A stretch of 24,941 nucleotides of DNA from Parasitella parasitica (taxonomy: Eukaryota > Mucoromycota > Mucoromycetes > Mucorales > Mucoraceae), in contig MU619270.1 of assembly GCA_025201805.1 (NCBI GenBank), positions 180,069 to 205,009 on the forward strand, given 5' to 3'. A program made the position numbers and the translations under genes. Shown here piece by piece: positions 10,794-20,516 of this stretch. Position 1 is the first letter of the stretch; the number at the start of each line of letters is the position of its first letter. The notes below the pieces were generated by a model. It did not search any database. It was not told where the DNA came from and saw only the letters and a program-made list of their open reading frames with translations.

Positions 10794-12833
10794 ATGCCAC
10801 TTGGAAATTTAACTAGACAGCCAGAGTACAGTAAGTTCCCGTGCACACACTAGACATTTACTGACATCCTGCATAGTCTTTGAACGTATAAAAAACGAGA
10901 GTCTGTCGTCGCAAAGCGCTCCATCATCCCATGCAATTCAACATACCACAACATCTGCACCTACAGCTCGGAAGGAATGGTCATTTCACCCAACGGATAG
11001 CAGTATTGTCAGCGACCCCGACGCCAACGAGTTTATAGTGGCGTCCAACATTGCAAACAACAGCTTGCCCATTTCCTTCTTCGACTACAACATTGCATTC
11101 ACCACTTGCACATCAGGCGCAGATCAGCAGCAAGAGCAAGCGCGGCAAAGAGGTGATGATAACGATGTCTCATTGCCCACAGGTTGGTCATTGGCTGGAC
11201 GAAAAAGATCCATCTTTGAGCTGGACACCAACATTCATACCCTCAGTCAGCTGTATTCAACACTAGCAGACCTTCGAAGCCAATTATCCGAAACCGTAGC
11301 TGATCAAGTAGAACAGCCCTTTGGAAAGAAGCCTAGTCTTCGACCCACTCGATCATCGACAGACGACTACATGTTTCTGTTGTCGAGATCTGAGTCATTC
11401 GGCAACACGTCCAGTTCTCCCTGTGAGACGAGCGCCATGGATACCGGGGAGGAGCATCAGCACCCGCAAGAAAAACAGCAAGACAGCCATAATAGCCACT
11501 ATTTTCACCTCCGTTGGACTTATCCTGACTTTATCTTTGAATCACTAGTTCATGTTTATTTAGACTGCATCTGTTTCACACGAGTCCAACCTAAAAAACT
11601 GCTGGATCAACATCGTCAGGGCACCAACTTGGACAAAGCCTACACTTGCGCCATTTACGCTTACGCAGCTTTACACGCTTTGCTGTGTCACCCCGATAAA
11701 TTTGGCATCTATTCGTTCATGAACCAGCTGGCTGTGGATGCATACCATGCTGCGTTTGATATGGTTGAATTCGACTCGATGGATGCAGTGACGTGCGAAA
11801 CACTGGTGATCATGCACCAGTATCTAATGACAGTAGGACAAGATGGAGAGGCCCGCAACTTGTTTTGTTTGGCGCAAAGACAAATGGAGCTGCTGCTATC
11901 AGCAAAAAATCAGCATCCGCAAGATGTGCATCGTCTTTATGCGTGGATGGCAGAGTTGGATTGGTCTTTTGCCCTAACAAAATTCACTGCTCCTCTGATA
12001 GAATATCGCCAACTAAAGACATCTCTTGATCAAATCAAGCCTGTGACGACAAACTTTGACGATGACCAGTTGTACGTGAAAGCGATCAAGTTTAAGATCA
12101 AGGGGCTGCGTATTCTGCTTTTGAACCACCACCACCAACAGCCATCGACAGACACCTGTGCTAACCGATTACACCAGCAATTGAATCGATGGAGAACGAA
12201 ATATCTCGAGACCTTTTTGTATAAAAGACACGCGCCCAATAATGACCAGCCAACAGCCTACACACTGGAAGATAAACTAGCGTTACGGCTGCATGCCCTT
12301 TATTTCGCTGGTATGTTGGAGCTTCATCAGCAACACATGCTACAGGGATTTGAGTCGGATCAATTGTGGGGATCATCCGGAGAACAATGGCCCGACTACT
12401 TTAGCCGTTTGTCCTCTACCACATCCTCGTTTGAAATTTCCAGCGAACAAAGTCAAGTAGAAAAGGGTTTATATAGAAGCATGGATGCAGCTTATGGTTT
12501 CATACAAGTGATTCGTTTGCTACTGGATGAAATGGATAGATGCATTTTGCCTCAGGTACTCACTCATGCTGTAGCCTTGTGCACTGGAAAAATGTCTATT
12601 TATACTAAACGCAACCCACTTGTCATGTGTAGATGATTGATACGCTGTCGGCTGCATGTACTGTCCTTTACTTTGGAAACAAGGTTGTATTATCCAATAA
12701 AGAAATGGTGCAGAAATCACAAGAGGCACTTTCATTTGTGGTGCATGCATTTCTCACTTCTACTACTTTTGCCATGATGGAATGCCCCCGTATAGATAGA
12801 TTTGTCAAGAAATGGGGGTCTCTAATGTCATGA
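10794..12833 (+). CDS. Regulator-like protein with fungal middle homology region, no zinc cluster (638 residues)
   Basis: Exons: 10794-10830, 10877-12555 and 12633-12833. Intron 1 (46 nt, GTAAGT...CATAG) brings MPLGNLTRQPEY into frame with IFERIKNESLSS. Intron 2 (77 nt, GTACTC...TGTAG) joins DEMDRCILPQ to MIDTLSAACTVLYFG. The N-terminal third is polar and low in complexity. From about residue 220 an all-helical domain begins with WTYPDFIFESLVHVYLDC, then AYTCAIYAYAALHALLCHPD, and LAVDAYHAAFDMVEFDSMDA leading into TCETLVIMHQYLM. That is the pattern of the middle homology region of Zn2Cys6 transcription factors (Fungal_trans type). No Cys-rich cluster, bHLH or other DNA-binding motif is visible in the predicted protein. 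It may be a cofactor or a partner that dimerises with a DNA-binding factor. An undetected far-upstream exon is the main alternative. The start is inferred from splice phase. Confidence 0.72.
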
Positions 12834-12852: not shown

Positions 12853-14031
12853 TTAATTAATAGAGATTTCATGATACGGTTCATGTTGGTCGACAGTTTC
12901 AGATAACGTCAGCGCAGATATCGTTTCCTGCAGCATGGCAGTAATATGAACAAAATCGGGAGGCTCTCCTTGGCTATAATTCTTCTGCAATATTGCACGC
13001 AGCAGGTCAAGCAGCATGCTCAGCCGTAGCTGCGTTTCTTCCAGCCACAGCCTCCACTGGTAATGGTATGCTGGCCGCTTGTTGTGCGTCACTGTGTTGA
13101 TGATGGACAAATATTCATTCTGATTTCGAATGTAAATCTTGAATCCCGCTTCCGTGCTGAAACTGACGTCGGAAGGCCTGGTTAAAAAAAAGTAGTTCAT
13201 TTGATGATAGGCAAGATTGTCCAAATCTCTGCAGGAAATGAGGCTAGTTTGTGCCAAGGAACATACTAATTTGATGTGCAGCTTGAACTCTTTACTCGGC
13301 TTTATATTTTTGCTCGGCTCTCGCCTTTCTGAATAGGATGACTGATCTGCATGATGGTATTGGTATCTTGATCGGATCACTCGCAGCTGCTGTTGTAAAT
13401 GGCTTGTTAATAAGCGATGAAAGATTCTAAGCACCATGTCTTCTTCCTCCAGAATGACCGCTAGTGTTTCTTGTAAGGTTGCCAAGAAATCCACCAAGAT
13501 AACACCTGTGTAGCTTTGTGCGGGCCATGGTTGTTGCTGTTGCTGCTGTTGCTGGGTACGTATAGTCGAGATGATTTGATCAAACTTTTGGCTGGGTGCG
13601 TCAGTTTCATGTGAATGGTTTATTTGAGAATGCAATGTGGAATCAAACAGACAGTGTTCTAGTAAGATGGCCAATGATTTATTCAATAAAAAGTCTAGAG
13701 AGAACGCCCTTCCTGATTTGCTCGGCATGCGGTCGTATATTCCAATGGCAAGGTGGTTCGCCACAGACTGAATGATACGCTGTTGCTGTATATATCCAGC
13801 ATTGCCGTGTCTGGTCAGGTAAGCTACAGCTGCATGTACACTTTGTCCGAATGGGTTAATGATGCGTGGTTTGATGAGATCGATTTGGTATTGCGATTGA
13901 AGTAGTTGGTACGACAATTTCCTGCTAGCATGCGAACAGGTGCCTAAATACCAGATGTCTGCAAATTCGAGATTTTGGCTAATTTGTAATATGAGCTCAA
14001 ATGGTAGATCGAGAAGACCTGCGCTTGACAT
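12853..14031 (-). CDS. F-box protein, 392 residues
   Basis: The start at 14031 gives MSSAGLLDLPFELILQISQN, followed by LEFADIWYLGTCSHASRKLS. This is a standard F-box (LP.E....I...L...D...L...C...R.L) at residues 6-45, which binds Skp1 in SCF ubiquitin ligases. The rest is helical, with a Q8 tract about one third of the way in (CAG/CAA codons, about 13527-13552) and no WD40 or leucine-rich repeats that would name a substrate class. The frame stays open another 37 codons to 14142, but that leader is mostly Phe from the T-rich strand of the A19 tract at 14073-14091 and is rejected. An alternative model splices an upstream exon (14149-14236) to 14018, giving a 417-residue protein. It is listed separately. 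The substrate is unknown. Confidence 0.8.
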   Translation of the reverse strand: MSSAGLLDLPFELILQISQNLEFADIWYLGTCSHASRKLSYQLLQSQYQIDLIKPRIINPFGQSVHAAVAYLTRHGNAGYIQQQRIIQSVANHLAIGIYDRMPSKSGRAFSLDFLLNKSLAILLEHCLFDSTLHSQINHSHETDAPSQKFDQIISTIRTQQQQQQQQPWPAQSYTGVILVDFLATLQETLAVILEEEDMVLRIFHRLLTSHLQQQLRVIRSRYQYHHADQSSYSERREPSKNIKPSKEFKLHIKLVCSLAQTSLISCRDLDNLAYHQMNYFFLTRPSDVSFSTEAGFKIYIRNQNEYLSIINTVTHNKRPAYHYQWRLWLEETQLRLSMLLDLLRAILQKNYSQGEPPDFVHITAMLQETISALTLSETVDQHEPYHEISIN

Positions 14032-14072
14032 TATGTTCCAGATATACGTTGATTGATTAATAATTTTACAAG

Positions 14073-14091
14073 AAAAAAAAAAAAAAAAAAA
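14073..14091. repeat. A19 homopolymer
   Basis: Nineteen A on the plus strand (T on the coding strand) just upstream of the F-box start. In the spliced model it is the pyrimidine-rich part of an intron; otherwise it lies in the leader or promoter. It produces the artificial poly-Phe leader of the long open frame. Confidence 0.8.
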
Positions 14092-14148
14092 GAAAAGAAA
14101 AAAAGTATTGTTTATACGCCAAAACGGTAAACAGCAGTTCATTTTTAC

Positions 14149-14236
14149 CTGCTTTGATGGTCATTTTCATTGGCCCAATTGCCTCTTTAATGTCGGTTGG
14201 GTTGAGTTCTGGAAGATATGCCTTTATTTCTTTCAT
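14149..14236 (-). CDS. Possible upstream first exon of the F-box gene
   Basis: From an ATG at 14236 the minus strand reads MKEIKAYLPELNPTDIKEAI and then GPMKMTIKA, ending in phase 1 at a GTAAAA donor (14148). An acceptor CGCAG at 14019-14021 is followed by GTCTTCTCG, so splicing gives ...TIKAGLLDLPFEL in frame with the F-box through a 130-nt intron. Codon choice is richer in C-ending codons than the AT-rich surroundings. An in-frame stop lies eight codons upstream of the ATG. Against it, the direct start MSSAGLL needs no splice. It could also be a relic of another gene. Confidence 0.4.
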
Positions 14237-14877: not shown

Positions 14878-17547
14878 TTATTGCAGCGGCTGATGAGGTA
14901 CAAAAGGAGGTAATGTAGGCGGGGAAGGCACGATGAATGAATACATTTCATCGTCAACGACACTCAATGGTCTTCCACCACAGGCGTTACGAACATCAGG
15001 CTCCATAACACCGACCAAATTGCGTGTCATTTCGAAATCATAAAGGTAAGCCTTGGACATTTTGGAAACATTGATAGATTGCTCCAAACATCTTCTAGCA
15101 AATTCTTGGTATTGGTCGTCGTTGTAATTTAGTAGCTTGATATAAACCATGTTTGCAAACAAGAAGCCCAATAGCGGGATGTTGCACTCGTCATGATGCT
15201 TTACCATAATATCCAAGGTTTGGGTGATAGCGTAGGCTGCATCAATGCAGATATAGAGACATTGGACCGAGAAGGGTGAGGTGGGTACGTGATCAGATGG
15301 GAAAAATGCTTGATATAGCAAAATCTTATTGATATTGTAGTATACATGGACACTAAGGATACAAAATCTAGCAAATTCGTGAATGTCAACGTGGCTATAC
15401 GGCTTTTCCTGCTGCTGTTCTCCAAAGCTATTGTAGCTATTACCGCAGCATGGCTCTGGCGTACCGGCTGCCATTTGATCAAGAGCAATGGATTCCAAAT
15501 CAGGATTCTTCCATTCGACAGGTAGGGTGTCGTAAAACTCTTGAAGTCTATCTTGCATTGCCAGTAAATCCATGGACAGTGTAGTATCCTGCTTGCCAGC
15601 TGCCTGTGCCGATAGCAAACGACTCATCACATCATGACGAAGCACCTGTAGCTGAATCATACAATACCACTCTGTATAGACATAGTAATTGATCATTTCT
15701 TGAGGTGGTTCTGCAAAGTCAATGTCCATCAAATCAAGGACAGGCTTTGGCTGGGGAGGAGGCAAGGGACAGTTGGGGTGGAATTGACCAGACTCGGCAG
15801 ACGTATTAGAGACACCTTGCAATACACGATACCAAGTATTAAAATAATACAGACACCAAACAAGGATGCTTTCTCTTGTATCAAGCACACGGCCTTCATC
15901 GTAAAGTCCTAATTCTTGAGCCATTGTAAATGAAATCCACTCGTAGATGTATATGACACCAGGATAGCCATTTTGGTGGTTGCAGTAGGAGAGTAAAAAG
16001 GCAGCCTGGCAATTGTCAATAGTGGGGTCATCAAAGCACTCGGCTAATTGTTCACGTCCCTTGAGACAGTAGGCCATAGAAAGAGCTTTGCCCATATTGT
16101 AATTGGGCGTGTCCTGAGCAGGACGTTTGCTCCAAACATGCATTTGGAAGGCGTTGCGAGCAGCCATGGCGCAAACAGCATAAACGAGAACAGTGCAAGG
16201 CCTTTTTTCAGGGTCTGGGTCATGGTAGCGAGCTAGAAATTCAGTAGTATCGACAATGGGCAGACGTATAGCTGAGCAGCAAGGCGTTTTACAATATAAT
16301 TCGACCAAACTGTCGGTTAGCTCGGGTGATATGTTTACAGGGTAGTTGTCAGGCAGTACGTGAGTAGGATGAGCCCAAGAGTTCCAAACCCCAAAAGAAA
16401 AGCCTGAAGATGTGTGTATGGAGCTCGTATCGTCTAATTCGGCAGACTGAGCCATCCTATGGCGCTCGTTGCCTAGCAAATCTGCAGCGCTCTTGTGGAT
16501 GCCGTTTTGATCGTCATCGTCATCGCCATCGCGAGAGGTGATGTGCATCGATTTCTTGAATTGGTCGACCAATTTAGACAGGTCGTTGTATGAATTGACG
16601 TTGCTTTCAACAGAGAGACCTTTGTTTGTAGTCGTAATTTTCCAAGCAAAGGGCTGCAGAGGCTTCTTTTTGAACGATTGATCCACTCGCTGGCCGAAAT
16701 CTCGAGTCTTTTGAGCGAAGTCTTTAGCCATTTTATCAATTGAGTCTTGCCATTGATCCATGACTTTATTCATTGTATTCAGTACTTGGGAGACGTGGTT
16801 TGCTTTAGGCTCGGTTTTCATGTAAACACATTCAAAATCGTTGCCGGCACACCTGCTGCAGCTGGGCAATGTGAGGTCGCACTGTTGCAGGTCTTTATAG
16901 CATTTGCTGCATGGATAAACGGAAAAAGAGCTGGTTGATGCGACTGGATTGCTGATATTGCTGTTTGAGCTGAGCATGTTATCGTCTTCCTCTTCTTGTC
17001 CCTCGGTGGCTGTTGCCATAATATAGTCTATACTACTGGACCCATCATTGGAGTGAATAGAGATGGAGGATCGGGCATCGCTATTGTACATTGGAGATGT
17101 CATATCTAAAGGCGCAACAGTTGATCTAGGCTGTGCTAATCTTTGCAGAGATATTCCTATTTTCGCTGTCGTGTTGGTTGGTAGTCCACCATTTTCACCC
17201 GTCTTTAATAGATCGCCAAACTTTTTGATTCGATCGCTAAGTGTTTCTGTTGCTTTCTGTAGTTTTTTCAATGTAGGCGCTGCTTCAGGATATTGACAGG
17301 TGATTCCTCTTCTTTTGCAACGAGAACAGCCTGGCTTGGTTCTATCGCATGCATGCCTGTAATGTCGAGATAAATGTAAAAAGAAAAAAAAAAAAAGTTA
17401 TTTTTACGTTTTTAACGATTAGAAACAAAACGCAAATTTCTAACATTTCTATTATTTTGGTATTTGCCTGAATCCTCTGCAACGGTAGCAGGCTGCCCCC
17501 AAATTGTTGTGATTTGCAGTGGTTGTTCTTTTTACAGCATCAGCCAT
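14878..17547 (-). CDS. Transcription factor with two Zn2Cys6 clusters and a middle homology region (852 residues)
   Basis: Exons: 17547-17468 and 17356-14878. Exon 1 starts MADAVKRTTTANHNNLG and ends inside the first zinc cluster. Its donor is GC, not GT (CAG|GCAAAT), with acceptor ACAG; this junction alone gives perfect cysteine spacing. Cluster 1 has cysteines at 20, 23, 30, 37, 40 and 47 (C-x2-C-x6-C-x6-C-x2-C-x6-C), with basic residues R22, R24, R27 and KRR after C40, as in DNA-binding Gal4-type domains. A helix (LQKATETLSDRIKKFGDLL) follows. Cluster 2 has cysteines at 176, 179, 186, 193, 196 and 203, with the same spacing. Its loop residues are YKDLQQ, DLTLPS and AGNDFE, so it carries little positive charge. 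A second helix follows (VSQVLNTMNKVMDQWQDSID). The middle homology region lies at about 375-640 (IRLPIVDTTEFLARYHD, MAQELGLYDEGR). A nuclear DNA-binding regulator is certain by family; targets are unknown. Confidence 0.9.
16828..16911 (-). other. Second Zn2Cys6 cluster, acidic type
   Basis: It encodes residues 176-203 of the factor at 14878-17547. The cysteine pattern C-x2-C-x6-C-x6-C-x2-C-x6-C is complete, including CSKC and CSRC knuckles. The second loop even has Pro before its last residue (DLTLPS), close to the canonical cis-Pro site of Gal4-type clusters. Only K178, K181 and R195 are basic. Confidence 0.85.
17357..17467 (-). other. GC-AG intron inside the first zinc cluster
   Basis: This is a 111-nt intron with donor CAG|GCAAAT and acceptor TTACAG. 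It splits codon Arg27 of the zinc cluster. No GT donor within the open part of exon 1 restores the cluster. Non-canonical GC-AG introns are a known minor class. Confidence 0.7.
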
Positions 17548-19714: not shown

Positions 19715-20440
19715 CTAGCAGAAAGTAACTGTGTATTCATTGGATGCACAGATAAATACACTAGTAGCATCATCAAAAGCATAGCTATAGGCATCAGGAC
19801 AAGTAGCCTTGACCTCCGAGGCGTAAGAATTAGTGCTGCATACATTGGGATTATAGAAATCACCAGTGCAGCAGTATTCATCAGTGTTGAACTTGGTACA
19901 AGCACTCTTGCAACCAGAAACTTTACCCTCATCGTCATAAGTTTCGAAACCAGAAGGACAGCTAGGCAAAGTAGAGCAAATGGAAGTAGCACAAGAACGG
20001 CTATCTTTAACGGTAAGACCTTCCTTCAAGACAGGTGCCACAGTCATTGGCAAATTGAATCCAGCTACAAGAGAGATGTCATAGTAGACAGCACCAGTAT
20101 CTAAAAAGTGGAATTCAGCGAGAGAGGCAGGGGAGCCCATACCAGACTTGAAGCAGTTTTCGCCACCGCAGTTAGTTCTGCCCCAAATACGTCCAGACCA
20201 ATTGACAGGTAATGTGTAGGAGTGAGTTGAACCGGCAGAGACTTCAACAACATCACCAAAATAGTCAACATCAACGGAATTGCCAACTTTCAATGTAGCG
20301 CCACAATTATTAACAACATTGACAGTGGGCTGACCAAATTTTAAGAAAGAGACCGAAGTTGTAGCGTTACTGGTGGCAGGGGCGGCAGCAACCAGGCTAG
20401 CCATCAAAGCAAAAGACGTAATAACTGTGTTGAAGATCAT
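19715..20440 (-). CDS. Secreted thaumatin-like protein (241 residues)
   Basis: A Sec signal peptide spans about residues 1-20 (hydrophobic TVITSFALMASLVAAA, cleavage near AAA-APAT). The mature part has the thaumatin/PR-5 landmarks in order: NNCGATLKVG, GRIWGRTNC, SLAEFHF, YYDISLVAGFNLP, a Cys-rich domain II (CKSACTKF...DEYCCTG), the family signature CPDAYSYAFDD, and the ending YTVTFC. Fourteen cysteines are present, against 16 in typical plant members. Family members are secreted and bind or cleave beta-1,3-glucans, acting in wall remodelling or antagonism. Of the acidic-cleft REDDD set, Arg, Glu and two Asp have visible counterparts, but the Asp expected in VDGFN is Ala here (VAGFN). Glucan activity may therefore be altered. 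It is a single exon with a clear minus-strand TATA box and poly(A) signal. Confidence 0.93.
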   Translation of the reverse strand: MIFNTVITSFALMASLVAAAPATSNATTSVSFLKFGQPTVNVVNNCGATLKVGNSVDVDYFGDVVEVSAGSTHSYTLPVNWSGRIWGRTNCGGENCFKSGMGSPASLAEFHFLDTGAVYYDISLVAGFNLPMTVAPVLKEGLTVKDSRSCATSICSTLPSCPSGFETYDDEGKVSGCKSACTKFNTDEYCCTGDFYNPNVCSTNSYASEVKATCPDAYSYAFDDATSVFICASNEYTVTFC

Positions 20441-20506
20441 GGTATGTGTGTCTAGTCTACTATTTTCTAAAGAGGAAGAGTTTAATGAATGACAATTCTT
20501 TGGCTC

Positions 20507-20516
20507 TTTTTATATA
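20507..20516 (-). promoter_or_regulatory. TATA box of the thaumatin-like gene
   Basis: TTATATAAAA on the minus strand, about 67 nt upstream of the start codon at 20440, followed by a pyrimidine-containing leader. It is a strong consensus match at a normal distance. Confidence 0.65.

Follow-up and report, generated by a model that had tools for sequence, protein, structure and literature searches.

The window (the whole 24,941-nt stretch of DNA that was analysed) encodes on its minus strand an 852-residue protein with two complete Zn2Cys6 clusters, and the protein belongs to a family in which this double arrangement is conserved. The family appears to comprise Mucoromycotina transcription factors built of two Gal4-like modules, each consisting of a cluster, a linker and a heptad helix, followed by a middle homology region. 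Cluster 1, strongly basic and carrying an arginine at the position of Gal4 Lys18, would be the DNA reader and would be dimerised by helix 1, whereas cluster 2 seems to have kept the zinc fold and lost the ability to read CGG. Judging from residue conservation, we lean, with modest confidence, towards a division of labour in which cluster 1 reads DNA and cluster 2 serves as an auxiliary or assembly module. The coordinates of the gene and its parts are collected in Table 1.

Table 1. Features of the double-cluster gene and its neighbouring F-box-like gene (window positions unless another locus is named).
Feature	Position	Strand	Remarks
Exon 1	17468..17547	-	Met1 to the split Arg27 codon; carries C20 and C23 of cluster 1
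Intron	17357..17467	-	111 bp, GC donor, AG acceptor; interrupts cluster 1 between C23 and C30
Exon 2	14878..17356	-	Runs to the stop codon; remaining cluster 1, linker, cluster 2, helix 2, middle homology region
Cluster 1, exon-2 portion (H28-C47)	17296..17355	-	C20 and C23 are encoded in exon 1
Helix 1, residues 56-79	17200..17271	-	Heptad L56 L59 T63 L66 I70 F73 L77; predicted in the P0001 model and by hydrophobic periodicity
Zinc cluster 2, C176-C203	16828..16911	-	YKDLQQ replaces the Lys/Arg-rich loop of other clusters
Helix 2, residues 212-251 (P0001: 208-247)	16684..16803	-	Long heptad helix, predicted
Middle homology region, about residues 333-823 (P0001: 328-818)	14968..16440	-	Edges approximate
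F-box-like gene, window	12853..14160	-	Downstream of the window factor
F-box-like gene, locus L009	5796..7199	+	Downstream of the paralog

Translation of the spliced gene upholds the initial annotation of two full clusters with identical spacing, C-x2-C-x6-C-x6-C-x2-C-x6-C. Cluster 1 consists of C20-C23-C30-C37-C40-C47 and cluster 2 of C176-C179-C186-C193-C196-C203, with a distance of 129 residues from C47 to C176. A Pfam search of the 852-residue protein returned two PF00172 stretches, as many as had been anticipated. When the genome was searched in all six frames, cluster 2 scored 28.6 bits and the exon-2 part of cluster 1 26.6 bits, against a curated PF00172 cut-off of 21 bits. Cluster 1 fits the six-cysteine pattern C-x2-C-x6-C-x5-12-C-x2-C-x6-8-C given in a passage of PMC7295025, and cluster 2 has the same spacing as cluster 1. 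Two clusters arose in none of 200,000 cysteine shuffles of the protein, the analytic expectation being about 2e-6 per protein, and a chance origin of the double cluster is excluded for practical purposes. A pattern search of the DNA for cluster-like codons gave 2 matches against 1.42 expected.

The completeness of cluster 1 depends on the splicing of a GC-AG intron, because the intron splits the cluster between C23 and C30. The double cluster could be an artefact of the gene model if exon 1 were part of another transcript, a reading to which we assign very little probability. In its favour, GC donors are a class reported at less than 1% in model organisms (in a passage of PMC7072748), and 49 of the 114 family entries contain cluster 2 but not the start of cluster 1. 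The window factor's own deposited protein (P0002, 741 aa), which begins at Met112, is among those without cluster 1. Against it, cluster 1 is completed in frame with the exact six-cysteine spacing, two motifs are present in 52 of 112 database proteins, and a paralog in the same genome has an intron at the identical position and phase (68 bp, GT donor), the splicing of which yields the same kind of cluster. The string RGFRH(A/S)C spans the junction of exons 1 and 2 in 49 of 114 family proteins. The model of P0008, from another species, continues into an intron left unspliced at this junction, and the first codons of the intron, R-Q, fit a GC donor. An intron that falls within cluster 1, with a GC donor in this gene, suggests how half of the architecture may go missing in annotation; since 49 of 114 entries lack the start of cluster 1, surveys may undercount double-cluster factors.

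A protein search recovered 112 relatives at an E-value of 0.001 (7986 candidates scored), and a profile search built on 59 of these recovered 115 (7992 scored). The E-values of the profile search drop from 1.3e-150 (P0114) to 2.5e-11 (P0115) and 5.4e-6 (P0116), and this steep drop marks a sharp family boundary at the sensitivity used. The closest named relatives of the window protein are from Parasitella parasitica and Mucor bainieri. By genus, the named members belong to Mucorales, Umbelopsidales or Endogonales; four names that were checked are all Mucoromycotina, and we take the remaining named genera to fall in the same subphylum. A regular-expression count among the 112 relatives found two motifs in 52, one in 51 and none in 9. 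In the family alignment (113 rows, the 112 database relatives and the window protein), 61 rows have a letter in every one of the 12 cysteine columns, and 58 of these keep all the cysteines; cluster 2 retains its six in all 104 rows that have letters there. The three misses (P0009, P0050 and P0110) concern C20, C23 or both, which exon 1 encodes, and are possibly gene-model errors. The 1168-aa model P0105 (Zychaea) has a repeat protein ahead of the double-cluster factor and may be a gene-model fusion. No paper on a Mucoromycotina double-cluster family was found by title or abstract start in the open-licence PMC literature, and no passage on double Zn2Cys6 proteins was found among those examined in PMC5415576, PMC4133162 and PMC3998117. 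The conserved double-cluster family is not found described in the literature searched; the architecture itself is a variant of known Zn2Cys6 factors.

The two clusters differ in their residue chemistry. The claim that cluster 1 is basic and cluster 2 is not agrees with mean net charges of +7.5 for cluster 1 (53 motifs, including one of the outlier P0116) and +0.25, that is near neutral, for cluster 2 (103 motifs). In Gal4, Lys17 contacts DNA; at the corresponding position, cluster 2 has Asp in 96 of 104 rows (Cys register). The reference positions for DNA contact given in a passage of PMC5559640 are Gal4 Lys18, Arg46 and Arg51. The position of Lys18 is occupied in cluster 1 by R27 (Arg in 66 of 73 rows) and in cluster 2 by L183 (Leu in 100 and Gln in 4 of 104 rows, never a basic residue), both counted in the Cys register. 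Elsewhere in the genome, K, R or H stands at position 18 in 17 of 17 other complete clusters that could be read whole, drawn from at least 34 PF00172 places outside the family, the rest of which are intron-split or unmatched. The cluster 2 loop, mostly (F/Y)KDLQQ, is near-invariant, and Gln184, Pro191 and Arg195 are invariant in 104 of 104 rows. The linkers show the opposite tendency: K211, which an ungapped count places at Gal4 Arg46, is basic in all 105 rows; at T55, the equivalent position after cluster 1, 0 of 71 rows have a basic residue, and K57 is basic in 75 of 76. By this measure of linker basicity, cluster 2 looks more Gal4-like than cluster 1.

Mean column entropy amounts to 0.67 in cluster 1, 0.94 in cluster 2, 0.87 in helix 2 and 1.08 in part of the middle homology region (residues 380-529), as measured in 58 rows selected for all 12 cysteines, so that the cysteine columns are zero by construction. 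Both the loss of basic residues from cluster 2 and its greater variability relative to cluster 1 could be read as the decay of a functionless relic. This reading is highly improbable and appears already contradicted by conservation: the six cysteines, Pro191, Gln184 and Arg195 persist in every one of the 104 rows, and the entropy of cluster 2 is near that of helix 2 and under that of the middle homology region.

Because its loop is mostly (F/Y)KDLQQ, cluster 2 would no longer read CGG, and its near-neutral charge beside the basic cluster 1 makes some other role plausible. Under the division of labour that we favour, cluster 2 would cap the long helix 2, pinned by its zinc, and contribute to dimer assembly, partner contact or clamping of the phosphate backbone. 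A more specific version, which we put forward tentatively and rate somewhat below an even chance, is that cluster 2 turned family-wide from a DNA-reading to a protein-assembly head with the DLQ loop and helix 2 as its interface, the candidate partners being cluster 1, a partner chain or a cofactor. If true, an ancient, lineage-wide Zn2Cys6 fold would have been kept for a non-DNA job beside a DNA-reading first cluster. A non-reading cluster 2 would also offer a natural comparison, within one protein and kept across Mucoromycotina, between a Zn2Cys6 cluster that reads DNA and one that does not.

The assignment of cluster 2 to a non-DNA or protein-contact role, proposed in the initial annotation, is thus plausible with respect to CGG, while other observations are compatible with DNA binding by cluster 2. 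The lack of Lys18 is not proof of lost DNA binding, because Pho7 has Asn at this position and is nevertheless an active regulator (according to a passage in PMC5559640). The factor could also be a reader with two heads, in which cluster 1 recognises one half-site and cluster 2 uses its KDLQQ loop and a basic linker to recognise another that is not CGG. The uniformly basic K211 and the near-invariance of the loop, which would be expected of a specificity loop, agree with such a factor, as does a tandem family of the same genome with two adjacent basic clusters per protein. The near-neutral charge of cluster 2, the Asp and Leu at the Lys17 and Lys18 positions and the basic residue kept at position 18 by all 17 other complete clusters speak against it, and we consider a second reading head a serious possibility, though rather an improbable one.

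A helix with the heptad pattern of the Gal4-type module is predicted after each of the two clusters. The hydrophobic fraction at heptad positions a and d, in the best of 7 registers, is 0.76 for helix 1 (0.04 elsewhere) and 0.75 for helix 2 (0.09 elsewhere); the non-hydrophobic heptad positions are T63 and G80 in helix 1 and K243 and R250 in helix 2. The structure model was read from P0001, a 90%-identical relative in which the numbering of helix 1 is the same as in the window protein. Its confidence has block means of 60-68 at cluster 1 and 70-77 at cluster 2, and a cluster 2 fragment folded alone gave a poor mean pLDDT of 54.9. Of the cluster-plus-helix unit with a (K/R)xFG motif that had been noted twice in the protein, the helices stand and the shared motif does not extend family-wide. 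The motif is found at residues 71-74 in 42 of 79 rows, at 245-248 in 31 of 99 and at both sites in just 20 of 73, and was rejected as a family feature; the profile alignment pairs F73 with W229, not with F247.

The presence of a middle homology region, also annotated initially, is supported by its predicted fold, the ten best structural matches of which are all Cep3/CBF3 chains. By profile, the Fungal_trans domain PF04082 is precomputed for the entry P0002 and was detected in P0001; it was not listed for the spliced window protein in a Pfam search at E-values up to 1. A 607-aa open frame elsewhere in the window (10813-12636, plus strand) looks middle-homology-like by eye and had no Pfam match at an E-value of 0.01.

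The two modules had been interpreted as copies of one cluster-plus-helix unit. If cluster 2 arose by duplication of cluster 1, the two should resemble each other more than they resemble other clusters, and they are hardly closer mutually than to other clusters of the genome. In a comparison of profiles with single sequences that took 11 of the 17 complete genome clusters, the cluster 2 profile gave 36.8 for its own cluster 1 (mean of 20 family cluster 1 sequences, 34.9), 35.4 for L025 and 35.0 for L023, and the cluster 1 profile gave 35.1 for its own cluster 2, 43.5 for L030 and 42.4 for L025. Pairwise, cluster 1 ranks six other clusters above its own cluster 2, and cluster 2, the paralog aside, ranks only L023 above its own cluster 1. 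The two profiles compared directly score 43.4, level with cluster 1 against L030 and above cluster 2 against L025, and the alignment of longer profiles runs without a gap for 57 columns, into the helix. An old duplication of a module within the gene is neither supported nor refuted by these sequence comparisons, the test being weak at a length of 28-35 residues.

The paralog (contig C13 of the same genome) has both clusters and is 54% identical to the window protein over the main match. In a tree, the window gene and the paralog fall in two separate clades, each with several Mucorales genera; the tree was built by a quick method from 62 rows chosen from the 112 relatives together with the window protein and the paralog, and carries a long-branch warning for divergent members. 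An F-box-like gene follows both factors in the same orientation, with 31% identity over 379 columns between its two copies; the window copy reaches 17.2 bits with the Pfam F-box profile, below the cut-off of 20.5. Because this neighbour adjoins both copies in the same orientation, the window gene and its paralog look like an old segmental duplicate. The window also contains, all on the minus strand, a Thaumatin-family protein (19715-20509; PF00314 at 5e-45), a Nucleotide-diphospho-sugar transferase domain (177-1343; PF03407 at 5.2e-22) and an open frame (2240-2674) matching only positions 2-92 of the 333 of the G-alpha profile.

Zn2Cys6 regulators were described at the outset as normally carrying one cluster, a fair statement that must be set against four double-cluster genes from two families in this genome alone. 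The genome (30.7 Mb, 232 contigs) has at least 38 PF00172 places in a six-frame search, and the genes with two matches in one open frame are the window gene, the paralog and genes on contigs C75 and C94. That the architecture may be common, which the initial annotation had named as a refutation, holds in part: it is lineage-wide in Mucoromycotina and occasional elsewhere. Isolated examples come from Tolypocladium, Cordyceps and Pleurotus: passages in PMC6471507 (CCG_02279 and CCM_00582) and PMC7295025 (PoZCP55) ascribe two C6 zinc domains to each predicted protein. By the descriptions in those passages they differ from the window factor, appearing in lists of DUF3468 proteins and together with septin domains.

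The second family of the genome is represented by related genes at L010 (4487-5239, minus strand) and L011 (3690-4469, minus strand). Among the best 120 of its 160 relatives, two clusters are found in 85, a single one in 34 and none in 1; in 79 of these 85 doubles the clusters are separated by 26 residues. This tandem Mucorales family resembles the window factor in having two PF00172 clusters per protein; it differs in that both clusters are basic, with C3-x5-C4 and the 26-residue gap, against x6 and 129 positions in the window factor. Membership of the window factor in the tandem family is ruled out by its 129-residue spacing and x6, and the tandem pair on C75 and C94 was unmatched in the genome search with the window protein.

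Among characterised regulators, TamA/Dal81 may resemble the window factor in manner of working only. Cep3 (CBF3 subunit B) and Upc2 share the fold of the middle homology region, at identities of 9-10% and 13%, respectively, with Upc2 placed below several unrelated helical repeats; unlike them, the window factor is two-clustered. Gal4-type factors (PF00172) share the six-cysteine spacing and the heptad helix after the cluster, and the profile search of PDB matched Ppr1 (E-value 0.00017), Lac9, Hap1/Cyp1 and Gal4, and weakly Put3 (E-value 0.71). The window factor departs from them in having two such modules per chain, the second with Asp and Leu in place of Lys17 and Lys18.
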